Of a stretch of DNA of 64,000 nt, positions 1,218-63,939 are shown piece by piece. The translations under genes were made by a program, and so were the position numbers. The stretch's first letter is position 1. Each line of letters starts with the position of its first letter. The notes under the pieces are model-generated. The model was not told the DNA's origin and did no database searches. It worked only from the letters and a program-made list of their open reading frames with translations. The DNA comes from Pseudolabrys sp. (GTDB lineage: Bacteria > Pseudomonadota > Alphaproteobacteria > Rhizobiales > Xanthobacteraceae), in assembly GCA_017849615.1 (NCBI GenBank), contig JAFIGS010000003.1, positions 186,001 through 250,000 of the forward strand, in the 5' to 3' direction.

Positions 1218-1314
1218 TCACGGGGGCTCGTCTCGTCTTGGCGACGATCGTGACGTCCATCTTGTATTGAAAAACGGGCAACGCCCCTTCGCCGCCCGCT
1301 CGATCTTCAGACAG

Positions 1315-1349
1315 AAAAGGAGCCGCGGGGTCGCGCCGCGGCTCCTTTT
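1315..1349 (-). terminator. Hairpin between dctP and dctQ (partial terminator or mRNA stabiliser)
   Basis: A perfect 14-bp inverted repeat, AAAAGGAGCCGCGG / CCGCGGCTCCTTTT (1315-1328 and 1336-1349), with a 7-base loop. It sits just after dctP, in the gap before dctQ. On the minus strand the stem ends in TTTT. Such hairpins after a binding-protein gene commonly keep the receptor mRNA more abundant than that of the permeases; here that role is inferred. Confidence 0.75.
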
Positions 1350-1356
1350 GTCGTCG

Positions 1357-2373
1357 CTAGCTCTGGCCGCCGACGGTCTTGACGACCTCGTCGATCAGCT
1401 CCTTGCCGACGCGCTTGCCCATGTCGTCATAGAGCGGCGCCATGGTCTTGCGCATCTCGGCGGTTTCCGCCGCGGTCGGCGTGATGATCGTCGTCTTGCC
1501 GGATTTCACGACTTCGGCCTTGGCGTCGTCGTTTTCCTTGGCGGACTGGTTGTTGGCGAACTGCGTCGACTCGGCCATCGCCTTGTCGAGCTGGGTGCGC
1601 ACGTCGGCCGGCAGGCCGTCCCAGAATTTCTTGTTCACGACCACCACGTAGCCGATATAGCCGTGGTTGGTTTCGGTGATGAACTTTTGCACTTCGTGCA
1701 TCTTCTGGGTGTACATGTTCGACCAGGTGTTCTCCTGGCCGTCCACGACGCCGGTCTGCAGCGCCTGATAGACTTCCGAGAAGGCCATGACCTGCGGCAC
1801 GGCGCCGAGCGTGCGGAACTGCGCTTCCAGCACCTTCGACGACTGGATTCGGAACTTCAGGCCCTTGTAGTCGGCCGGCGCCTTGAGCGGCTTGTTGGCG
1901 CTCATCTGCTTGAAACCGTTGTCCCAGTAGGCGAGGCCCACCATGCCCTTGGAATCCATCAGCTTGAGCATGCGCTTGCCGATCGGGCCTTCGGTGACCT
2001 TGCGCAGCGAATCGAGGTTCGGCAGCAGGAACGGCAGGTCGAACACCTCGAATTCCTTGATGCCGATCGGGCCGAACTTGGAGTTCGACGGCGCCAGCAT
2101 CTGCACCGCGCCGAGCTGCAGCGCTTCGAGTTCTTCCTTGTCCTTGTAGAGGGTCGAGTTCGGATAGACTTCGACCTTCACCTTGCCGTTGGTGTACTTC
2201 TCGGCGAGTTCCTTGAACTTCTCGGCGCCCTTGCCCTTCGGCGTGTCCGGGGCGACGACGTGGCTGAACTTGATGACGATGGGCTGCTGCGCCAACGCGG
2301 CGGCCGGGGCCGAAAGCAGCGCGGCGGCTGCGGCAGCGCCGACAAGCCACTGGCGTTTGGACATCTCGAACAT
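1357..2373 (-). CDS. dctP: TRAP transporter solute-receptor, DctP-like
   Basis: 338 residues from the chosen ATG (2371-2373), which has a strong AAGGGAGG Shine-Dalgarno 8 nt upstream; the frame stays open further upstream but has no signal there. The N-terminus MFEMSKRQW is followed by an Ala-rich hydrophobic segment and a likely signal-peptidase site after ALA (about residue 28). The mature start PIVIKFSHVVAPDTPKGKG is typical of the DctP/SiaP family, as are EVYPNSTLYKDKEELEALQLG and the central VDGQENTWSNMY. It is the periplasmic receptor delivering an organic acid to DctQ/DctM. First gene of the operon; its ligand is not predictable from sequence. Confidence 0.93.
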   Translation of the reverse strand: MFEMSKRQWLVGAAAAAALLSAPAAALAQQPIVIKFSHVVAPDTPKGKGAEKFKELAEKYTNGKVKVEVYPNSTLYKDKEELEALQLGAVQMLAPSNSKFGPIGIKEFEVFDLPFLLPNLDSLRKVTEGPIGKRMLKLMDSKGMVGLAYWDNGFKQMSANKPLKAPADYKGLKFRIQSSKVLEAQFRTLGAVPQVMAFSEVYQALQTGVVDGQENTWSNMYTQKMHEVQKFITETNHGYIGYVVVVNKKFWDGLPADVRTQLDKAMAESTQFANNQSAKENDDAKAEVVKSGKTTIITPTAAETAEMRKTMAPLYDDMGKRVGKELIDEVVKTVGGQS

Positions 2374-2514
2374 TCTCAATTCCTCCCTTGGACGGCCGTT
2401 TGCGGCCTTATTGCTTGATCTGCGACAGTCACGCTCAGCGACAAATTGACACCAAAACTTCCGCTCCGGCAAGGGCGAAGCCCCTGCCCAACCACGCGAA
2501 AACCGCCGCAACGC

Positions 2515-2547
2515 AAAAAAAATACCGCGCCCCGAAGGACGCGGTAT
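2515..2547 (-). terminator. Rho-independent terminator of leuA
   Basis: Arms ATACCGCG / CGCGGTAT (2522-2529 and 2540-2547) around a 10-base loop, followed on the minus strand by eight T (A-tract at 2515-2522). It lies 37 bp past the leuA stop and before the dctP promoter region, so it separates the two transcripts. Confidence 0.88.
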
Positions 2548-2583
2548 CAATTATGAACTTGCCTAAATCGACGGCGGTGGCGA

Positions 2584-4161
2584 CTAGCCGACTTCGTTGG
2601 CGTGGATGCGCTTCTCGATGCCCGGCGTCTTGCCGCGCTTGCTCATCATCTTGTTGAGCGCACCGAGATAGGCCTTGGCCGACGCGACCAGCGTATCCGG
2701 ATCGGCGCCCTTGGCGGTGAAGGATCGCCCTTCCGACGCCAGGCGCACCGACACCTCGGCCTGCGCATCGGTGCCCTCGGTCACAGCATGCACCTGGTAC
2801 AACTCCAGCTTGGCCTCGTGCGGCACGATGGCGTGGATCGCGTTGAAGATCGCGTCCACCGGGCCGTTGCCGGTCGCCTGATGCGTGGTGTGCTTGCCGT
2901 CGATGTCGATGGTCAACGTCGCGGTCTGCGGGCCCATGGTGCCGGCGATGACGGTGAGCGACACGATCTTGGCGCGGTCATGCGCGGTGGCGATTTCCTC
3001 GTCGACCAGCGCCTCGATGTCCTCGTCGTAGATCTGCTTCTTGCGATCGGCCAAGGCCTTGAAGCGCACGAAGGCATCCTGCAGCTGGTTGTCCGAGAGC
3101 TGGTAACCCAGCTCCTCCAGCTTGTGCTGGAAGGCGTGGCGGCCCGAGTGCTTGCCCATGACCAGCGAGGTCTGTTTCACGCCAACCGATTCCGGCGTCA
3201 TGATCTCGTAGGTCTGCGCGTTCTTGAGCATGCCGTCCTGGTGGATGCCGCTTTCGTGCGCGAAGGCGTTCCGTCCGACGATGGCCTTGTTGTACTGCAC
3301 CGGGAACGACGTCGCCGCCGCCACCAGCTTGGACGCGCGCGTCAGCATGGTGGCGTCGATATTGGTGGCGTACGGAAACACGTCGTTGCGCGTCTTGATC
3401 GCCATCACGACTTCCTCGAGCGCGGCGTTGCCCGCGCGCTCGCCGATGCCGTTGATGGTGCATTCGATCTGGCGCGCACCGCCCATGACGCCGGCGAGCG
3501 AGTTGGCGACCGCCATGCCGAGATCGTTATGGCAGTGCACGGAGAACACCGCCTTGTGGGAATTCGGCACGTTCTCGATCACGCGGCGGAACAGGTCGCG
3601 ATATTCCTCCGGCGTGGTGTAGCCGACGGTGTCCGGGATGTTGATGGTGGTGGCGCCGGCCTTGATCGCGGCCTCGACGCAACGGCACAGGAAATCGAAC
3701 TCGGTGCGGGTGCCGTCCTCGCTCGACCACTCGACGTCGTCGGTGTGGCTGCGGGCGCGCGTCACCTGCGCGATCACCATCTCGTAGACTTCGTGCGGCT
3801 CCTTTTGGAGCTTGTACTTCATGTGCACCGGCGAGGTGGACAGGAAGGTGTGGATGCGATTGCGCTTCGCAGGCTTGATGGCCTCGGCGCAGCGGTCGAT
3901 GTCCTTCGGGGCGGCGCGCGACAGGCCGCAGATCACCGAATTCTTGGCGCGGCGCGCGATCTCGTTGACGGCGGCGAAATCGCCTTCCGACGCGATCGGG
4001 AAGCCGGCCTCGATGATGTCGACGCCCATCGTGTCCAGGAGTTCGGCGACCTCGAGCTTTTCCTCGTGAGTCATGGTCGCGCCGGGGCACTGCTCGCCAT
4101 CGCGCAAGGTGGTGTCGAATATGACGACGCGGTCCTTATCGGACGGGGTCTGGGTAGCCAT
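2584..4161 (-). CDS. leuA: 2-isopropylmalate synthase
   Basis: 525 residues, the length of the long bacterial LeuA. It condenses acetyl-CoA with 2-oxoisovalerate, the committed step of leucine synthesis. The N-terminal TIM barrel opens with IFDTTLRDGEQCPGATM (Arg-Asp-Gly-Glu active-site motif, about residues 14-30), carries the metal-binding VHCHNDLGMAVAN near residue 210 and the INGIGERAGNA motif about 30 residues later. The last 130 residues form the LeuA dimer domain that binds leucine for feedback inhibition. The ATG has AGAAGGAC at good spacing. Upstream lie a Leu-rich leader peptide and a promoter, indicating attenuation by leucine supply. Monocistronic: a terminator follows. Confidence 0.96.
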   Translation of the reverse strand: MATQTPSDKDRVVIFDTTLRDGEQCPGATMTHEEKLEVAELLDTMGVDIIEAGFPIASEGDFAAVNEIARRAKNSVICGLSRAAPKDIDRCAEAIKPAKRNRIHTFLSTSPVHMKYKLQKEPHEVYEMVIAQVTRARSHTDDVEWSSEDGTRTEFDFLCRCVEAAIKAGATTINIPDTVGYTTPEEYRDLFRRVIENVPNSHKAVFSVHCHNDLGMAVANSLAGVMGGARQIECTINGIGERAGNAALEEVVMAIKTRNDVFPYATNIDATMLTRASKLVAAATSFPVQYNKAIVGRNAFAHESGIHQDGMLKNAQTYEIMTPESVGVKQTSLVMGKHSGRHAFQHKLEELGYQLSDNQLQDAFVRFKALADRKKQIYDEDIEALVDEEIATAHDRAKIVSLTVIAGTMGPQTATLTIDIDGKHTTHQATGNGPVDAIFNAIHAIVPHEAKLELYQVHAVTEGTDAQAEVSVRLASEGRSFTAKGADPDTLVASAKAYLGALNKMMSKRGKTPGIEKRIHANEVG

Positions 4162-52702: not shown

Positions 52703-52868
52703 GTGCCGCCCATGATAGCGCGCCGCGGCCGGAGTGCCTACCCGCGACAGGGGCTGTGGAATCCGGCCCAAAAAGACACGTTTCGGCCGCTTTCTGTTCC
52801 ACGCCGCTCTCTGACGGGGCTTTTTTGGCCACCATCAAAGGTTGTGCAATTTAAACATATCACGCAAA

Positions 52869-53735
52869 ATGGTACCGACTGCTGACGTGCGTCTAAACAT
52901 GCCATCACGGGTCGCGCGCGTACTTATCCTATGCAAGACCTACCCCTCGCCGAGCGGCAAGCACGTCGAGACGTCTTGTGTTGCCGGCATGGAGAACAAT
53001 GGCGAACTAATCCGCCTCTTTCCCGTCCCGTTTCGGCTGGTTGATGATGACCGGCAGTTTAAGAAATGGCAGTGGATCGACGTTCGGATTGAGAAGGCAA
53101 GGAACGACCACAGGCCGGAAAGCCACAAGGTCTTTGTCGATACGATCAAGTGCGACCACAGGGCACTGTCCACAAAAAATGGGTGGGCGGAGCGCAAGCT
53201 CCAACTGGGCAAGCTAACACTGATCTCAAGTTTTTCTGAGCTCGAAGCGAAACGACAATCTTTTGGCGCCACGCTCGGTCTCCTCAAGCCGTCGAAGATC
53301 CTTGAGCTTGAGATTGTGCCGGCGAGAAACCAAGACTGGACGCCACAGGAAAAAGAAAAGCTTATTCAAGACTGGCGCCAGGAAGGCTTCTTTGACGCCG
53401 CTGACGCCAGAAAAATTACGACGCTAAGAAAGGTGCCGTTCGATTTCTACTACCGATACGAATGCGCAGCGCAAGGCAAGACGGAAACTCATCGTCATAA
53501 AATCGCCGATTGGGAAGCCGGAGCACTCTATTGGAATTGCCGCCGACGGTACGGAAATTGCTGGGAAGAGCCATTCCGTGAAAAACTCGGGACGCAGCTT
53601 CCTTCCACCGACCTGATGTTCTTGATGGGAACCATCCATCGATTCCCCGACCAGTGGCTGATCGTCAGCCTGATCTACCCGCCGACACCTAAGCCGCGGC
53701 CCGAGCCTCATCAGAGATCACTTTTTGAGCCGTAA
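52869..53735 (+). CDS. Uncharacterised protein, convergent partner of a DUF488 gene
   Basis: 288 residues from ATG 52869; a TTG nine codons earlier and an ATG at 52899 are alternatives. I do not recognise the family. The N-terminus RVARVLILCKTYPSPSGKHVETSCVAG looks like a beta strand followed by a loop, then RLFPVPFRLVDDDRQFKKWQWIDV; the middle is Lys/Glu-rich, and conserved-looking Trp/Cys residues occur near NCRRRYGNCWEEPF. The last residues QRSLFEP resemble a bacterial sliding-clamp motif (Q-x-S/D-L-F). Its base composition is AT-richer than its neighbours. The final 47 bp overlap the DUF488 gene tail to tail. Confidence 0.75.
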   Translation: MVPTADVRLNMPSRVARVLILCKTYPSPSGKHVETSCVAGMENNGELIRLFPVPFRLVDDDRQFKKWQWIDVRIEKARNDHRPESHKVFVDTIKCDHRALSTKNGWAERKLQLGKLTLISSFSELEAKRQSFGATLGLLKPSKILELEIVPARNQDWTPQEKEKLIQDWRQEGFFDAADARKITTLRKVPFDFYYRYECAAQGKTETHRHKIADWEAGALYWNCRRRYGNCWEEPFREKLGTQLPSTDLMFLMGTIHRFPDQWLIVSLIYPPTPKPRPEPHQRSLFEP

Positions 53736-54165
53736 TGTGCTTGACGCGAAACCCGCCGAGCGGAGCGGCTGCCCGGGCAACGAACGTGCGGTGACACCTG
53801 TCAAAATCAGTTTCAAAGCAAACTAGACAAGACGGCGATGCCTTTGCGATAGCGACGACTTCCGCCAGCGCTTCGCCGTTCTTCTTTAGATGAGCCAAGA
53901 AGCCGCGGGTGTAGGCAGACCAGTTCTCGTCTTGCCTATACTTGTCACGGACAGGCTTCGGACACCCCATCTGCACGACATGGCGGTACGCAATACCGGC
54001 CTCGTCCAGCGCACAAGCGAGCGCAGATTTCGAGAAGCCTTTTTTTCGCGAAAGAGGATTGGCCCGGACGTCGATGACAGTTTTCACGCCGGCGCTTTTC
54101 AGACGCGCGAGGAAAATCTCAAGCGAGAGCCCTTCATAGCCAAAGGTGAAAAGGTCACGTTTCAT
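53689..54165 (-). CDS. DUF488 family protein
   Basis: 158 residues from ATG 54163-54165. Conserved DUF488 features: LFTFGYEGLSLEIFLARL at the start, the VIDVRANPLSRKKGFSK motif (about residues 30-46), and the cysteine cluster CLVCFETDFDRCHRTF (Cys113, Cys116, Cys124, His125). The family is of unknown function, with a possible metal- or nucleic-acid-related site. No Shine-Dalgarno is evident. It converges on and overlaps the preceding unknown gene by 47 bp; both are AT-richer than surrounding genes, suggesting joint transfer. Confidence 0.88.
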   Translation of the reverse strand: MKRDLFTFGYEGLSLEIFLARLKSAGVKTVIDVRANPLSRKKGFSKSALACALDEAGIAYRHVVQMGCPKPVRDKYRQDENWSAYTRGFLAHLKKNGEALAEVVAIAKASPSCLVCFETDFDRCHRTFVARAAAPLGGFRVKHITAQKVISDEARAAA

Positions 54166-54263
54166 ACTCAAGTCATTAACATCAGGACCGATTCTGCACC
54201 ATCAGGCGTCATCAACGGCGCGCTCCGAAACTGTGCAAATGCGGAGAGCTGATGGGGAACGAC

Positions 54264-57425: not shown

Positions 57426-60173
57426 ATGGCCGACCCCAGACGCTTTGAACCCGCGCCCGCCCCGGCGCGCCCCGCCGCCGGCGGTATCGCCGCCCGCGCG
57501 CAGGCGAGCATGGGAGCCAGGCGCGAGGCGCCCTATCTCGCCGCGCTCAATCCCGAGCAGCGCGAGGCGGTGGAGACGCTCGACGGGCCCGTGCTCGTCC
57601 TCGCCGGCGCCGGCACGGGCAAGACGCGGGTGCTGACCACGCGCATCGGGCACATATTGAACCTCGGCCGCGCCCATCCCAGCCAGATCCTCGCCGTCAC
57701 CTTCACCAACAAGGCGGCGCGCGAGATGAAGGAGCGCGTCGGCCACATGGTCGGCGAGATCGTCGAGGGCATGCCGTGGCTCGGCACCTTCCACGCCATC
57801 GGCGTCAAGATCCTGCGGCGTCACGCCGAAATGGTCGGGCTGAAGAACGACTTCACCATTCTCGGCGTCGACGACCAGATCCGCCTCATCAAGCAGCTCA
57901 TCGAAGCCGAGAAGCTGGACGAGAAGCGCTGGCCGGCGCGCGTCTTCGCCGGCATCGTCGATGGCTGGAAGAACCGCGGCCTCACGCCCGACCAGGTGCC
58001 GGCCGGCGAAGCCGCGAGCTTCGCCAACGGCAAGGGCAAGAAGCTCTATGCCGCCTATCAGGAGCGGCTGAAGACGCTCAACGCCGCCGACTTCGGCGAC
58101 CTGCTGCTCGAATGCATCCGGCTGTTCCGCGAGAATCCCGATGTGTTGAAGCAATATCAGCAGCGCTTCCGCTTCATCCTGGTGGACGAATATCAGGACA
58201 CCAACGTCGCGCAGTATTTGTGGCTGCGGCTCTTGGCGCAGATGCCGACCAACGCCGTCATTCCGGAAGCCGCGAAGCGGCTGTCCGGAATCCATAATCC
58301 CGGAGTCGACGATCAAGGCGAGACAGGGGATATGGATTCCGGGCTCGCGACGTCGTCGCGCCCCGGAATGACAGAGAGTGAAGGCGTCAGTCTTGAAGAC
58401 ACCTGGGATGCCCCCTCTCCCGACGCGCTGCGCGCGTCGACCTCTCCCCCAAGGGGAGAGGTGAAAGAAATCGCGGCCGCGCCCGCGCAAAAAAACATCT
58501 GCTGCGTCGGCGACGACGATCAGTCGATCTATGGCTGGCGCGGCGCGGAAGTCGACAACATCCTGCGCTTCGATCACGACTTCCCCGGCGCGAAAGTCAT
58601 CCGCCTCGAGCGCAATTATCGCTCGACCGGCCACATCCTCGCCGCCGCCTCGACCTTGATCGCCAACAACGAAGGCCGCCTCGGCAAGACCTTGCGCACC
58701 GAGGATGTCGATGGCGAGAAGGTCGAAGTCACCGGCGCCTGGGACTCGGAGGAAGAAGCGCGCTCGATCGGCGAGGAGATCGAGCAGATGCAGCGCGCCG
58801 CGCGCGACCGCGGCGAGGATCATCCGCTCGACGAGATCGCCATTCTGGTGCGCGCCTCGTTCCAGATGCGCGAGTTCGAAGAACGCTTCATCCAGCTCGG
58901 CCTGCCCTACCGCGTCATCGGCGGTCCGCGTTTCTACGAGCGCGCCGAAATCCGCGACGCGCTGGCCTATCTGCGCGTCATCGCCCAGCCGGCCGACGAC
59001 CTTGCCTTCGAGCGTATCGTCAACACGCCCAAGCGCGGCCTCGGCGACGCCGCGGTGCAGATGCTGCACGACTACGCGCGCAAGCAGCGCATCCCGCTGA
59101 CCGAAGCCGCCGCCATCCTCTCCGCCACCGACGAGATGAAGCCGAAGCCGCGCAACGCGCTGCGCGGGCTGATGGAAAGCTTCGCGCGCTGGCGCAAGCA
59201 GAAGGACACGCTGCCGCACACCGAACTCGCCGAGATCGTGCTCGACGAGAGTGGCTACACCGAGATGTGGCAGAAGGACCGCAGCGCCGACGCCGCCGGC
59301 CGCCTCGAGAACCTGAAAGAACTCGTGCGCTCGATGGAGGAGTTCGAAAACCTCGCCGGCTTCCTCGAGCACATCTCGCTGGTGATGGACACGGCCGAAG
59401 GCGACTCGGAGCAGAAGGTCAGCATCATGACGCTTCACTCCGCCAAAGGCCTCGAGTTCGACACCGTGTTCCTGCCCGGCTGGGAGGAAGGCCTGTTTCC
59501 GCATCAGCGCTCGCTCGATGAACAGGGCAAGTCCGGGCTCGAGGAGGAGCGCCGCCTCGCCCATGTCGGCCTGACGCGCGCGCGCAAACGCGCCAGGATC
59601 TATTTCGCCACCAACCGCCGCGTCCACGGCCTGTGGCAGAGCAACATCCCGTCGCGCTTTCTCGACGAGCTGCCGTCCGAGCATGTCGAGGTGAAGGAAG
59701 CGGCCGGCGGCACCGGCGGCTTCGGCATGAGCGGCTACGGTCCGTCGCGCTTCGACGAGATGGCCTCGTTCGGCTCGAAATATTCGACGCCCGGCTGGCA
59801 GCGCGCGCAGGGCCGTCGCGGGAGCGGCGGCTTCAACGAAAACGGCGCGCCGCGCTATGTGCCGGACGGCGTGTTCAACCAGGATGAGGATTACGGCGAC
59901 GACACTTCTTCTTCACCTCCCCCTGGAGGGGGGAGGTCGGCGCGCGAAGCGCGCCGGGAGGGGGTGAAGCCGCAACGGAAGCCCATCACCATCGAGGGCG
60001 AGCTGATCGCCAAGTCATCGGGGCCCGCTTCCAGCTTCCGCCCCGGCGACCGCGTGTTTCATTTGAAGTTCGGCAACGGCAACGTCACCGCCGTGGACGG
60101 CAACAAGCTGACCATCGTGTTCGACAAGGCCGGCGAAAAGCGCGTGGTGGATAGTTTCGTGGAGAAGGTTTAA
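57426..60173 (+). CDS. uvrD: UvrD/PcrA-type DNA helicase II with in-frame repeat insertions
   Basis: 915 residues; typical alphaproteobacterial UvrD is shorter by about 90. Helicase motifs: I AGAGTGKT (about residues 60-67), II DEYQDTN (near 254), III GDDDQSIYGWRGAEV (from 362), IV HILAAASTLIANNEGR region, V LHSAKGLEFDTVFLPGWEEGLFPHQRS, VI RRLAHVGLTRARKRARIY. Between motifs II and III about 70 residues (279-350) are encoded by two palindromic repeats, and residues 829-848 by a third; all stay in frame. These segments are Pro/Ser/Gly-rich and likely disordered. The extreme C-terminal RVFHLKFGNGNVTAVDGNKL is the normal UvrD Tudor-like end. A decayed copy of it lies at 61374-61463. Confidence 0.95.
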   Translation: MADPRRFEPAPAPARPAAGGIAARAQASMGARREAPYLAALNPEQREAVETLDGPVLVLAGAGTGKTRVLTTRIGHILNLGRAHPSQILAVTFTNKAAREMKERVGHMVGEIVEGMPWLGTFHAIGVKILRRHAEMVGLKNDFTILGVDDQIRLIKQLIEAEKLDEKRWPARVFAGIVDGWKNRGLTPDQVPAGEAASFANGKGKKLYAAYQERLKTLNAADFGDLLLECIRLFRENPDVLKQYQQRFRFILVDEYQDTNVAQYLWLRLLAQMPTNAVIPEAAKRLSGIHNPGVDDQGETGDMDSGLATSSRPGMTESEGVSLEDTWDAPSPDALRASTSPPRGEVKEIAAAPAQKNICCVGDDDQSIYGWRGAEVDNILRFDHDFPGAKVIRLERNYRSTGHILAAASTLIANNEGRLGKTLRTEDVDGEKVEVTGAWDSEEEARSIGEEIEQMQRAARDRGEDHPLDEIAILVRASFQMREFEERFIQLGLPYRVIGGPRFYERAEIRDALAYLRVIAQPADDLAFERIVNTPKRGLGDAAVQMLHDYARKQRIPLTEAAAILSATDEMKPKPRNALRGLMESFARWRKQKDTLPHTELAEIVLDESGYTEMWQKDRSADAAGRLENLKELVRSMEEFENLAGFLEHISLVMDTAEGDSEQKVSIMTLHSAKGLEFDTVFLPGWEEGLFPHQRSLDEQGKSGLEEERRLAHVGLTRARKRARIYFATNRRVHGLWQSNIPSRFLDELPSEHVEVKEAAGGTGGFGMSGYGPSRFDEMASFGSKYSTPGWQRAQGRRGSGGFNENGAPRYVPDGVFNQDEDYGDDTSSSPPPGGGRSAREARREGVKPQRKPITIEGELIAKSSGPASSFRPGDRVFHLKFGNGNVTAVDGNKLTIVFDKAGEKRVVDSFVEKV
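58257..58372. repeat. Palindromic element inside uvrD (first insertion)
   Basis: 116 bp bounded by GTCATTCCGG (58257-58266) and CCGGAATGAC (58363-58372), with the inner GGATTCCGGGCTCGCGA near the right end. It is recognisably the same family as the intergenic element at 13344-13449, which has GGATTCCGGGTTCGCG in the same place. Here it is read through as protein (residues about 278-316). Confidence 0.85.
58411..58466. repeat. Second palindromic element inside uvrD
   Basis: The stretch from CCCCCTCTCCCGACGCGC to GGGGAGAGGTGAAA is palindromic around GCGCGCGTCGACC and matches, in inverted orientation, the element at 59912-59968. It encodes residues of about 329-347 (SPDALRASTSPPRGEVKE). It follows the first element by 38 bp; together they keep the reading frame. 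Confidence 0.8.
59912..59968. repeat. Third palindromic element inside uvrD
   Basis: TTCACCTCCCCCTGGAGG ... CGGGAGGGGGTGAA, with the central GCGCGCGAAGCGCGC hairpin. Same family as 58411-58466 in the opposite orientation. Encodes SPPPGGGRSAREARREGVK in the linker before the C-terminal Tudor-like domain. Confidence 0.82.
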
Positions 60174-60212: not shown

Positions 60213-60407
60213 ATGCTGCGCGACAGTCGGGACATCATTCGGCGTTTGCTGGAAGACGGCTTCGAACAGGTTTCCGTGCGTGGGTCGCATCACAAGTTCG
60301 TTCACAAGGCGAAACGACTGATGGTCATCGTGACGCATCCGAGAAAAGACATTCCGGTCGGAACCGTTCGCAGCATCTACAAGATGGCCAACTGGCCAAA
60401 GGACTGA
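60213..60407 (+). CDS. hicA: HicA-type toxin (mRNA interferase)
   Basis: 64 residues, normal for HicA. The double-stranded-RNA-binding fold carries the catalytic His in VRGSHHKFVHKAKRLMVIVTHP (GSHHKF, residues 24-29), and ends with the VGTVRSIYKMANW helix. It cleaves mRNA when unopposed. It begins 39 bp after uvrD and is followed 3 bp later by hicB, the toxin-first order usual for hicAB. Confidence 0.9.
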   Translation: MLRDSRDIIRRLLEDGFEQVSVRGSHHKFVHKAKRLMVIVTHPRKDIPVGTVRSIYKMANWPKD

Positions 60408-60410
60408 TCG

Positions 60411-60689
60411 ATGCCGCACTACATCGCCCTGATCCACAAGGATGCCGACAGTTCCTACGGCGTGTCGTTTCCCGACATTCCCGGCGTCATCACCGGCGCC
60501 GACACGATCGACGAGGCCATTCAGATGGCCCGCGAGGTGCTGGAATTTGCCGCCGAGGATTGGGACGGCGAATTTCCAATGCCCCGCACCATCGACCAGC
60601 TTCGGGCTGATCCCGAATTCCAGGCGGACGCTGCGGATGCCGTCGTAGCCGCGGTGCCCTTCCGGGTGAAGGCAGAAGCGGCCGAATAG
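60411..60689 (+). CDS. hicB: HicB-type antitoxin
   Basis: 92 residues. The RNase H-like HicB fold is visible: HYIALIHKDADSSYGVSFPDIPGVITGADTIDEAIQMAREVL. The C-terminus (RADPEFQADAADAVVAAVPFRVKAEAAE) shows no clear helix-turn-helix or ribbon-helix-helix motif, so autoregulation may be weak or use another mode. It neutralises HicA and lies 3 bp downstream of it. Confidence 0.87.
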   Translation: MPHYIALIHKDADSSYGVSFPDIPGVITGADTIDEAIQMAREVLEFAAEDWDGEFPMPRTIDQLRADPEFQADAADAVVAAVPFRVKAEAAE

Positions 60690-60727: not shown

Positions 60728-61240
60728 CTACTCCCTCACCCACTCCAGAATGCCGACGGTCTTCTGGCCCGGCAGCACGGCGGATGAAATCTCCGGCGTC
60801 CTGATGACGAGCCTGTCGCCCGCCACCTCGAAGAACCGCACCTGCCTGGCGCGCTCGCCGGAAAACACTTCGTTGGCCGACATGTCCACCGTGGTGGTGA
60901 TCTTGTTGCCCTCGAAGGTGGACTTGCCCGCATAGGCCAGCACGCTGTCGAGCAGCGCCGCCTTCTCCTCGGTGGTCTTGGCCGGCTTGCGATCGGCGCC
61001 GGAGATGATGACCATGAAATCGCCCTGCGGCGTGACGATGAGCCGGCCCTTCGGGTTGTCACCATAAGGCGGCTTGCTCTCGGTGGAGCCGACGACCTGC
61101 AGCACCCACTTGGTCAGCTTCCACGAGCCGATCAGTTCCTTCGGCGCGGCATCGGCCATGGCCATTCCTGTGTTGAGCATTACGGCGGCGAGCGCGGCGA
61201 CTGCCGCAATGCCGGCCTTCGCTGTGTTCGGGCGATTCAT
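60728..61240 (-). CDS. Exported lipocalin-like domain protein
   Basis: 170 residues from ATG 61238-61240 with AGGAGAG 4-5 nt upstream. Signal peptide: AGIAAVAALAAVMLNTGMAMADA, cleavage near residue 30. The mature part begins PKELIGSWKLTKWVLQVVG and contains GRLIVTPQGDFMVIISGADRKPA, matching the bacterial lipocalin-like domain (PF13924 type). Secreted or periplasmic; ligand unknown. It lies between hicB and the decayed uvrD tail, pointing toward hicB. Confidence 0.82.
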   Translation of the reverse strand: MNRPNTAKAGIAAVAALAAVMLNTGMAMADAAPKELIGSWKLTKWVLQVVGSTESKPPYGDNPKGRLIVTPQGDFMVIISGADRKPAKTTEEKAALLDSVLAYAGKSTFEGNKITTTVDMSANEVFSGERARQVRFFEVAGDRLVIRTPEISSAVLPGQKTVGILEWVRE

Positions 61241-61373
61241 GTTTCTCTCCTCTGGCGCTTCTTTGTGAGCGCGCGCGGCGAGACTGGCGGAAGCAAGGCG
61301 AGAAAGAAAGCGGTTTAAGTGTTCAGAATTGCGTATTGTGGTGCGGAACCCGCTATAAGTCAGCAATTGCAGC

Positions 61374-61463
61374 GGTAACGCTGTGACCGCAGTAAGTGGA
61401 TCACCACCCTCGACAAAGCCGGGGAGAAACCGACCGTCGATAGCTTTGCGAAGAGGACGCGAT
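61374..61463 (+). pseudogene. Decayed copy of the uvrD 3' end
   Basis: GGTAACGCTGTGACCGCAGT reads GNAVTAV (uvrD: GNGNVTAV), and after a frame slip ITTLDKAGEKPTVDSFAKR (61400-61456) matches uvrD's LTIVFDKAGEKRVVDSFVEK. Same orientation as uvrD, 1.2 kb beyond its stop, with at least one frameshift and no upstream remainder. It lies immediately before the AT-rich nuclease-STAND gene and may mark the edge of an inserted segment. Confidence 0.75.
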
Positions 61464-61503
61464 TAAAATCTAGACGTGATTCACAAAGTATCGGCGCTGA
61501 TTT

Positions 61504-63783
61504 ATGACCTATAACTTTTCAAATCTCTCGCCCGCCGATTTCGAGGATTTGTCACGCGAGTTGGTTGGCAAAGAGCTGGGCATTCGGTTTGAATCATTTG
61601 CCGCCGGACCCGACGGCGGCATCGATGGCCGTCACGCCGCTGGGAACAAGTCGACAATTCTTCAAGCCAAGCACTATGCCGGCTCAAACTACTCTACCCT
61701 GAAATCCGCAATTAAACGAGAAGTCAAAGCAGCGAAAAAGCTAAATCCAACCAACTACGTTCTAACTACATCTCTGGCACTCACACCCAAAAACAAGGAA
61801 GAGCTTTCGAAGCTTTTCGGTAAAAGCTTTTCCAGGCGAGTAACAATATTCACGCGTAGCGACCTAAACTCCCTCCTTCGAGACTTTCCAGAAGTTGAAA
61901 AAGCCCACATCAAATTATGGCTTTCTAGTTCTGCCGTTTTGGATCGCGTAGTCCGTTCCGCATCACACGCATTCTCCACAGCGTCCAAAGCGGAAATAGA
62001 AGCGAAAGTAAAAGTATACGCTCAGAACCCGAGCTTCAAAGATGCGAAAGAGAAACTCGAAACAAATCACGTCGCAATAATCTCAGGGCCTCCCGGCGTA
62101 GGGAAAACGACACTCGCGGAGATGCTATCCTATGCGTACATAGGAGAGGAATGGGAATTCGTCGCGATCAGGAACCTCGACGACGGCTTTGCCGCCATCA
62201 ACGACACCAAGAAGCAAATTTTCTTCTTCGATGACTTTCTAGGAAAAATCGCACTCGACGCCCGCGCGCTCGCCGCAAAAGACTTTGAGTTAGCAAAATT
62301 TATAAAGCGCATTCAAAGAACAAAAAATGCGCGATTTATACTAACCACACGAGCATACATTTTCGAAGAGGCAAGACGCGCCTCAGAATACTTAGCCGAC
62401 GACCGCCTCAACATCATGAAATACGTTTTGGATGTCGGAGTATACACTCGTCGAATTCGGGCCAGAATCCTCTACAACCATCTTTATGTACATAAACTGC
62501 CAATCGCAAGCATTCGCGAACTGATAAATAGTCGGGCACTAGCTAAGATCGTCGATCACGCGAATTACAATCCCCGCATAATAGAATGGATGACAGACGT
62601 CACAAACGTCAAAACAGTGCCCGCAAAAAACTATCCAAAAGTATTCATCGAATCGCTCGATCATCCATCACGAGTTTGGGATACAGCCTTCCGCAGTCAC
62701 ATTCCCACCAAATGCCAGAATCTTTTGTTCGCTTTATTTTTCTGTTCTGAATACGGAGTCGACGCAGAAGACCTCAGGACTGCATTCGAGCCGTTAAACC
62801 AAGCGATATGCAGAAATTTCGGCCAATCGCATACAGCGAAAGATTTCGAAGAAGCTTTGAAAATTCTTGAAGGCAGCTTTGTCAAGATTGCCGATGGATC
62901 AGTCTCATTCATTAACCCGTCAGTTCGGGACTACCTAGCGAATTACTTGCAGGACAAGAACCTGCTATCAATATTCCCCCCTGTCGCTCAAAGCGTCCGT
63001 TGGGCCCGAGAACTTTGGGAGCACTTCAAAAAGATTCCAGATATACAGCCCGAGGAAACAGATCAGTTCACAAGAAGATTTAAGAAAATAGCGCAGAAGT
63101 TTAATAGATTTCCAATCTGGAAGAAGGTCCGAAACGAACCGGGAATGCTACGGTATTTCGACGACTCAAATACAACGCGACTCGAATTGCTGCTGGAGTG
63201 GTGGAATATCTCTCATTTGAAGGAATATTCCGCCGCAGCCTTAGCTGTAGCCACTAATCCTACTGAGGGATATACGCATTGGCTCGACGGCGAAGATTTG
63301 GTGAGAATAATTGTCTCACTGAAATCAGACGACCAAAGCGAGATACCCTCCTTAGATAATTTAACCTTTGAGCTAGAAGGACGTTTGATAAGCATTCTAG
63401 AGTCTAACCTTGGCCCGGACGAGCTAAGGACGCTGGTTGAGCGCATTGATGATGCCCCTGCCTATTTCTCCCGAGATGTGTTTGACGCCATCAATCGCGC
63501 CATTAATTCAGCGATAGACGACGCCGATTTTTTCAGCACCCAAGTGGACTCCGAGTCGATTGTCGACGACCACTCGAAGGCGATCAAAGCCCTCGGCAAG
63601 CGGGCAAATGTCCAAAGTGATCGAGTTGAGATGGCAGTCGCAGCATATCAAAGTCGGAAGCAAGAAATTAGCGAAGCTGTTGAGGAAGAAAAACCTTCTT
63701 TCTCCGGAAATATCCTCAAAGAGAAAGATAAATTCAACGACACGGATCTTCAAAACCTCTTCAGTCTATTGATAAGCAAATAG
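61504..63783 (+). CDS. Nuclease-nSTAND ATPase fusion (candidate anti-phage defence protein)
   Basis: 759 residues. Residues 5-130 are an Mrr-like PD-(D/E)xK nuclease: Glu14 in FEDLSRELVG, Asp41 in GPDGGIDGR and the QAKHY motif (Gln54, Lys56). Residues 185-330 are an nSTAND3-type P-loop ATPase: Walker A GPPGVGKTT (195-203), Walker B QIFFFDDFLGK (Asp243, Asp244), sensor ARFILTTRAYIFEEARR (Arg283). The remaining 400 residues are helical without a recognised repeat and are the likely sensor. This order matches Avs-type single-gene defence proteins. Its AT-rich codon use differs sharply from the chromosome around it, indicating recent transfer. No Shine-Dalgarno is obvious; start ATG 61504. Confidence 0.85.
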   Translation: MTYNFSNLSPADFEDLSRELVGKELGIRFESFAAGPDGGIDGRHAAGNKSTILQAKHYAGSNYSTLKSAIKREVKAAKKLNPTNYVLTTSLALTPKNKEELSKLFGKSFSRRVTIFTRSDLNSLLRDFPEVEKAHIKLWLSSSAVLDRVVRSASHAFSTASKAEIEAKVKVYAQNPSFKDAKEKLETNHVAIISGPPGVGKTTLAEMLSYAYIGEEWEFVAIRNLDDGFAAINDTKKQIFFFDDFLGKIALDARALAAKDFELAKFIKRIQRTKNARFILTTRAYIFEEARRASEYLADDRLNIMKYVLDVGVYTRRIRARILYNHLYVHKLPIASIRELINSRALAKIVDHANYNPRIIEWMTDVTNVKTVPAKNYPKVFIESLDHPSRVWDTAFRSHIPTKCQNLLFALFFCSEYGVDAEDLRTAFEPLNQAICRNFGQSHTAKDFEEALKILEGSFVKIADGSVSFINPSVRDYLANYLQDKNLLSIFPPVAQSVRWARELWEHFKKIPDIQPEETDQFTRRFKKIAQKFNRFPIWKKVRNEPGMLRYFDDSNTTRLELLLEWWNISHLKEYSAAALAVATNPTEGYTHWLDGEDLVRIIVSLKSDDQSEIPSLDNLTFELEGRLISILESNLGPDELRTLVERIDDAPAYFSRDVFDAINRAINSAIDDADFFSTQVDSESIVDDHSKAIKALGKRANVQSDRVEMAVAAYQSRKQEISEAVEEEKPSFSGNILKEKDKFNDTDLQNLFSLLISK

Positions 63784-63939
63784 CCACATATCTTTCCGTC
63801 GATCTCCGTCAGTTCTCGCTATCAAACGCCTCTCAGATCGAAAGCTGAGCACACAGGTTTCTGCGCGCGTGGCCGGACGCAGAAGCGGTGGCCACTCTTG
63901 CTGGCCGCGTTGACCGCTGCGACGACCAGCCCTAAGCCA

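Follow-up and report, generated by a model that had tools for sequence, protein, structure and literature searches.

The Mrr-nuclease/nSTAND3 gene and its product

We analyzed a 64,000-nucleotide stretch of a Pseudolabrys sp. genome (contig JAFIGS010000003.1, forward-strand positions 186,001 to 250,000; hereafter the window, numbered from its first letter) and focused on a gene at 61504..63783 (+), which encodes a 759-residue protein with an Mrr-type nuclease domain followed by an nSTAND3 ATPase. The protein is a member of PDC-S73, a PADLOC candidate for single-gene phage defence (E-value (E) 6.5e-142; residues 2-690 aligned to profile positions 3-670 of 752). The open reading frame (ORF) is intact, carries all residues that are invariant among the relatives and uses a start codon common to them; an earlier note, made from the sequence alone, had placed it exactly.

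The presumed effector is an N-terminal PD-(D/E)xK-type nuclease (residues 1-150; 61504..61953, +). Pfam places Mrr_cat (PF04471) at residues 6-124 with 28.8 bits against a cut-off of 21 (E 1.5e-6), and the aspartate and QxK residues of this family are present. In an alignment of 20 members, the invariant positions of the N-terminal part are G35, D37, G39, D41, R43, Q54 and K56, and E14 was also counted as invariant in the nuclease region; Asp41 and Gln54-x-Lys56, which the earlier note had singled out as nuclease residues, are among them. The predicted structure of the whole protein, built with an alignment of four sequences, has a predicted local distance difference test score (pLDDT) of 71.1 and a predicted template modelling score (pTM) of 0.43. 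It is poor around the nuclease active site (residues 31-50, pLDDT about 39-45), and no nuclease is found among the 50 Foldseek matches shown. It is the Pfam match, together with the invariant residues, that supports the nuclease assignment.

The nSTAND3 domain (PF20720; residues 172-328; 62017..62487, +) was recognized with 176.2 bits against a cut-off of 27.2 (E 4.7e-52) and has the Walker A motif (195-202), the Walker B motif (240-244) and the conserved arginine (R283) of this family. Nine positions in the ATPase are invariant in the 20-member alignment (G195, G198, G200, K201, D243, D244, T281, R283 and H326), in agreement with the intact Walker A, Walker B and sensor Arg of a STAND ATPase that had been noted before. 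Mean identity to the window protein in this domain is 69% for eight close members and 41% for 11 distant ones. The segment that follows (residues 329-487; 62488..62964, +) retains a mean identity of 29% even to the 11 distant members, and P357, R358, P472 and D476 are invariant. From this conservation we place the end of the STAND core at about residue 487, where it is predicted to be winged-helix-like (NPSVRDYL, 471-478) after a helical part; a match to HTH_TANC1 at residues 437-481 (E 0.012) was below the Pfam cut-off.

Beyond the core lies a variable helical region, the presumed sensor (residues 488-740; 62965..63723, +), in which mean identity drops to 26% for the close and 12% for the distant members. 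This region was modelled as helices with pLDDT 80-93 at residues 621-720, with confidence below 50 at residues 534-553, 588-592 and 727-742, the last being a linker at its end; a single-sequence model of the C-terminus was poor (pLDDT 46). Neither Pfam nor NCBIfam nor the PDB sequences shown offered a convincing match beyond about residue 488; the earlier note took this sensor as possibly new, and the region varies even within the family. When the profile of residues 500-740 was compared with itself, no repeat emerged. The earlier description of a 400-residue helical C-terminus lacking a recognized repeat thus holds for the absence of repeats in residues 500-740, and needs to be redrawn as to its extent, because residues 329-487 belong to the STAND core, only about 488-740 varies, and a conserved tail follows.

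This tail (residues 741-757; 63724..63774, +) reads DxxLxxLFxxL in the window copy, was modelled as a short helix (746-758) behind the low-confidence linker, and is more conserved than the region before it (mean identity 44% for close and 24% for distant members, with F753 invariant among the 20). An [ILMV]F pair is found within the last 16 residues of 35 of 36 members (the exception is L081; here and below, numbers after G and L denote genomes and loci). The background frequency was 0.103 in equal-length windows of the preceding 230 residues of the same 36 proteins, and in 1000 rounds of shuffling the last 60 residues the pair never occurred in more than 10 of the 36. All 36 proteins, a few of them partial, were found through the window protein and none is a SIR2- or TIR-armed STAND protein; as these members are related, the count demonstrates conservation and not independent origins. 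We considered the LF tail as a clamp-binding motif, for which the consensus is QLxLF, and rejected this because the LxxLF spacing differs.

The uvrD-prmA interval and its cargo

The gene stands apart in composition. Its GC content is 0.466 and its GC content at third codon positions (GC3) is 0.50, compared to a mean GC3 of 0.82 and a minimum of 0.61 in 48 other window ORFs picked by a script, and its codon adaptation (0.351) is the lowest of the 49 ORFs (next 0.437, median 0.699). The contrast in base composition with the flanking genes that the earlier note described is therefore real. By that note, a conserved, vertically inherited position in all relatives with normal codon use would speak against its reading; the outcome favours the reading, since codon use is aberrant, the gene occurs in 2 of 43 genomes of the genus (counting that of the window) and other genomes have different cargo at the same place.

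The second carrier in the genus is G008. Between the two genomes, 230 of 284 residues of the protein are identical (81%), as are 734 of 873 residues of UvrD (84%), so the cassette may have been in the genus for long and have since been lost or replaced in nearer species. The G008 copy (L069 11402-12392) ceases to match at residue 284, 139 bases from the contig end, perhaps because of an insertion that disrupted the assembly; this locus has no right flank.

On its left, the gene is preceded by uvrD (57426..60173, +; Pfam UvrD-helicase, 2.8e-84), a conserved anchor of a hotspot that extends to prmA (Pfam, 1.5e-54), and both anchors were found across the genus. We read the interval between them in 20 other genomes; elsewhere the anchors are on different contigs or are not both among the matches listed. 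AT-rich ORFs, defined as having at least 150 residues and GC below 0.55, are present between uvrD and prmA in 10 of these 20 genomes. In a control with ten genomes, they make up 15,705 of 62,721 bases of the spot (25.0%), and in the flanks (24-29 kb per genome) we found one such ORF in all (744 of 281,119 bases, 0.26%).

The cargo of five of the ten genomes matches PADLOC models strongly: Zorya II in G023 (ZorA2 3.1e-140, ZorB2 3.9e-92, ZorE2 3.1e-100), a DRT (DRT6/4; DRT6 1.6e-137) in G004, a retron reverse transcriptase of the RT-Protease type in G014 (1.5e-170), a PifA-like KAP ATPase (4.1e-67) with a second PifA-like ORF (7e-11) in G033, and a C5 methylase (7.9e-90) with Vsr (1.1e-28) in G006. 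Two genomes give weaker matches, a TIR-TPR protein in G030 (TIR-NLR, 3.1e-9) and a GajB-like fragment in G019 (6.5e-9), which may be merely a piece of a UvrD-type helicase. Two more are marginal: a HEPN and a helix-turn-helix protein in G027 (L055, AT-rich ORFs at 1270-3392 of the reversed locus; at best CasR, 2e-4) and an ORC-CDC6-like ATPase with a small ORF in G032 (L064 832-2999; HEPN_IX, 4.7e-4). The AT-rich cargo of these two genomes is a candidate source of unknown defence genes. The tenth, G005, has a 169-residue ORF (GC 0.43) outside the PADLOC scan. No title or abstract opening among the matches listed in a literature search on uvrD with defence islands or hotspots names uvrD as such a site, and this compact chromosomal hotspot can be mined for undescribed systems.

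The gene occupies a segment (61350..63912) that has no counterpart in the sister species G004, against which homology ends at 61349 and begins again at 63918. Compared with G033, homology stops at 61331-61334 and resumes at 63913; the right edge is at 63916 against G010 and G027 (63936 for G027 in one comparison), and against G030 homology resumes only at 64801. This right edge falls where relatives have a CAP-family gene (identified by Pfam on that of G010), the front part of which is missing in the window. We found no direct or inverted repeats of at least 9 bases between the two segment edges, and no integrase among six scanned neighbours (UvrD, HicB-like, lipocalin-like, L,D-transpeptidase, PrmA and peptidase M24).

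At its left edge the segment holds a degenerate second copy of the uvrD 3' end (61357..61457, +; nhmmer E 1.2e-8), which was found with a profile of the last 150 uvrD bases and ends about 45 bases before the start codon. A better copy lies in G008 (L069 11232-11358, E 2.4e-30) and ends about 44 bases before the gene; in G814 one follows the HicB-like gene (E 2e-40); and in G005 (L123 1-1550) two small overlapping ORFs are followed by a copy (E 2.7e-18, separate small search) at which the AT-rich ORF starts exactly. A second copy was found in four of 22 loci searched and in none of the other 18; in the main profile search, a control stretch of the window gave E 0.2 at best, and no stray match anywhere was better than 9.8e-5. 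Judged from sequence, such copies are the trace that stacked insertions at a gene 3' end would leave, and the G005 arrangement is a clear sign of them.

Between uvrD and the segment are a HicA-like ORF of 64 residues (60213..60407, +), likened by eye to the HicA of G814, a HicB-like gene (60411..60689, +) common to G004, G008, G010 and G814, and a lipocalin-like gene (60728..61366, -) common to G004 and G033. The HicA-like and HicB-like genes (60213-60689), which immediately follow uvrD, resemble a toxin-antitoxin pair, and G814 has HicA (Pfam, 1.3e-18) in the same place. Upstream, a second AT-richer pair of genes at 52842-54171 (GC 0.54 and 0.56) matches PDC-M19B (2.5e-57) and PDC-M19A (5.5e-35; DUF488 by Pfam), and is a possible two-gene defence system.

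Relatives and proposed function

Matches to the protein were found in 14 of 397 order genomes and 12 of 385 class genomes, counts that include its own genome and short partial matches. In a phylum sample in which at most two candidates were scored per genome, 9 of 398 genomes (the window's own included) matched at E < 1e-100; we rejected the count of 170 of 398 as family members because most of the listed matches are short P-loop matches. Viral contigs gave no match with the single protein and three with the alignment, one of them short and partial, and a scan of genome contigs with the single protein gave one relative.

Several relatives have defence genes as neighbours: GajA (L034), Old (L009), PtuA/PtuB (L050), PD-T7-5 (L041), PDC-S46 (L036), Ppl-like (L038), LmuB-like (L040) and PDC-S06 (L035, L039, L042 and L046), with weaker matches beside L037, L045 and L048. 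A PDC-S06 gene thus adjoins four relatives (just a piece of it in L035) and an Old-type gene adjoins L009, so that the relatives may often be accompanied by an OLD-like nuclease. We saw no protein partner in the window, where these OLD-type neighbours are absent. L072 is a P2-like prophage (Ogr, CI and integrase by Pfam), in which the relative lies directly after CI, between CI and the integrase; part of PMC9122126 describes an antiviral hotspot between cI and integrase in P2-related phage. Capsid, terminase and integrase genes are present in L071.

Other loci hold altered relatives. One (L012 3051-3974 with L022, G098) is split by about 2.5 kb holding an IS1595-family transposase, and that of L035 is broken into two ORFs. 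A Thioclava relative (L042 6989-8647), immediately preceded by an IS1247 transposase gene, corresponds to the window protein only from residue 212 onward and has no nuclease. On the Prosthecochloris plasmid pPAES01 (L045 2550-5482), a relative is found beside an annotated diversity-generating retroelement (Avd, reverse transcriptase and formylglycine-enzyme-type proteins).

We propose that the window gene probably encodes a single-gene anti-phage STAND immune receptor that was brought as a small cassette into the uvrD hotspot. A defence role is well supported by its domains and invariant residues, the PDC-S73 match, the best fold match (Avs5), the alien composition, the rarity in the genus, the hotspot cargo, the neighbours of the relatives, the prophage site and a variable C-terminus on a conserved core; from these features we infer the function itself. 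The earlier view of a nuclease-STAND-sensor protein on exchanged DNA, which is very likely a defence gene, agrees with the PDC-S73 match and the hotspot.

STAND proteins assemble in the presence of ligand and ATP, which part of PMC12724215 summarizes for Avs2; the same source names the terminase as the target for Avs1-3 and the portal for Avs4. In the window protein, the C-terminal helical region of about 250 residues (488-740) would bind a phage product. Binding would release the nSTAND3 core for ATP binding and self-assembly, as suggested by the STAND class and by the fold match to Avs5, and assembly would bring the Mrr-type nuclease domains together; the DNA cleavage that follows would halt the phage and probably the host cell with it. 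Comparison of genomes shows that the gene arrived as a small cassette, carried by an agent that we did not see, in a post-uvrD hotspot whose defence genes vary among species.

Plasmids also carry relatives, and the chief targets of the protein could be plasmids or other mobile elements instead of phages, or it could serve in competition between such elements. In favour of this, 55 plasmid records match at E 1e-5, seven of them at a single place that covers 80% or more of the protein, and two plasmid relatives are close to repABC. Since the gene is also chromosomal and prophage-borne, at sites common to phage-directed systems, we regard a plasmid-directed role as improbable. Even less probable is that the gene is a decayed or inert passenger: relatives are broken in G098 (the insertion with the transposase), G008 (near its contig end) and L035, but the reading frame of the window copy is unbroken and retains every invariant residue.

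A modification-dependent, type IV-like restriction enzyme, in which the C-terminal region would sense modified DNA and the ATPase would gate the Mrr-type nuclease, is the least improbable of these alternatives, and it too is unlikely. Mrr, the namesake of Mrr_cat, is modification-dependent; the P-loop matches of the profile include McrB (E 0.0033, residues 173-213), along with many other P-loop proteins; and the relative in L072 adjoins a type IV mREase-like gene (2.9e-16). On the other hand, the ATPase is nSTAND3 with Avs5 first in the fold search, and the presumed reader diverges far faster than the core (12% vs 41-43%), which is a better fit to the sensing of varied proteins.

Several observations weigh against an anti-phage receptor of this kind. 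No sigma-70-like promoter was found before the gene, and we found no activity test of the PDC-S73 family. Among the 16 PADLOC families reported at E up to 1, none is Avs-named; the PADLOC library includes Avs models. The overall structure model is modest (pLDDT 71, pTM 0.43), nine of the 11 fold matches with E no higher than 0.001 are to general AAA+ ATPases, and the template modelling score (TM-score) to the Avs5 structure is just 0.24/0.22 on this pTM 0.43 model. The gene and UvrD are similarly diverged between the two carriers, so that part of the gene's history may be vertical, and ten of the 20 intervals read have no AT-rich ORF. Neighbours of the relatives were hand-picked from annotation with no background rate, those tested in L044 and L047 gave no match, and L037 gave a weak one only. 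Lastly, PADLOC also matches the housekeeping gene prmA (mad2, 1.1e-17), and middling PADLOC E-values therefore prove little.

The conserved tail suggests a broader and more tentative idea. An amphipathic [ILM]F tail, retained by nuclease-nSTAND3 immune proteins even where the sensor before it can no longer be aligned, could be a universal control element, either a latch holding the receptor off or a hook to one shared partner; a new sensor could then be fitted while the switch stays as it is. Within the genus, receptors of this type would move as cassettes, insert at the uvrD 3' end and leave a copy of it. We consider this combined idea possible and, on balance, doubtful.

Comparison with known systems

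The N-terminal nuclease is not confined to STAND proteins. Residues 1-186 match the PADLOC profile of Aga, a protein associated with prokaryotic Argonautes (pAgo), with E 2.7e-56, and the N-terminal nuclease region is 50-52% identical to the N-terminus of four proteins of pAgo-associated type. On pNGR234a, a protein of restriction endonuclease (REase)-TIR type, with a TIR domain after the nuclease-like start, adjoins a class I pAgo (E 1.8e-218). In a midpoint-rooted tree of 32 N-terminal domains, the four pAgo-type proteins group with eight STAND ones including the window's, with support of 89/96 that is below the 95 mark; this grouping points to exchange of a nuclease between two immune switches, STAND and pAgo-TIR. 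One nuclease module is thus apparently used by two unrelated immune switches. Pfam reported no Mrr_cat at E 0.001 in the pAgo-type proteins scanned. Unlike the window protein, the pAgo-paired REase-TIR proteins carry TIR and PNTD domains, have a pAgo partner and lack STAND; the window protein resembles them over residues 1-186 only, and its six scanned neighbours are other proteins than a pAgo.

Classical restriction-modification also differs, as Pfam found no cognate DNA methyltransferase among the six neighbours, where PrmA is a ribosomal-protein methyltransferase. As to newness, the protein does not found a new family, being already catalogued as PDC-S73, with the Mrr_cat-STAND layout in print in the part of PMC9122126 that bears on it. 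The family and layout are identical to those of PDC-S73, and the last ~70 residues of the window protein are outside the match. A literature search for PDC-S73 found no paper, one for nSTAND3 yielded two, of which one concerns an insect virus, and among the matches listed in a search on phage defence candidates there was only unrelated work, mostly on padlock probes. The P4 hotspot proteins of PMC9122126, in which, according to the description there, the nuclease Mrr_cat replaces TIR before a STAND domain and C-terminal repeats, are alike by that description in having Mrr_cat before STAND, and unlike in that no repeat was found here.

The best fold match was EfAvs5 (SIR2-STAND, 9jap; Foldseek E 4.9e-8), followed by human SAMD9 (E 1.2e-5, TM-score 0.18). 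PDB sequence searches gave weak, mainly P-loop matches (23 in one search, and the best 60 of 304 in a profile search), and Avs5 is absent from both sets. Avs5 is also the protein in which a passage of PMC12931631 names nSTAND3 (PF20720). The window protein is like Avs5 in its nSTAND3 core and order of parts, and unlike it in having an Mrr-type nuclease as effector in place of SIR2, in addition to the low TM-score. Avs1-Avs4 consist of a nuclease effector, a STAND ATPase and a C-terminal sensor, as outlined in the same source, and to that extent the window protein has the same plan, with a presumed sensor; it differs in having no match to an Avs-named PADLOC family.

Among the Avs proteins, Avs4 is of the Mrr type. 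We conclude that the protein belongs, with good support, to a known kind of bacterial immune receptor and is an ordinary representative of it; the hotspot, the shared nuclease module and the conserved tail add to its interest. The new details are the uvrD 3'-end copies at cargo edges, the nuclease module common to pAgo-associated proteins and the [ILMV]F tail, and the catalogued candidate PDC-S73 gains strong support from genome position together with a concrete model.

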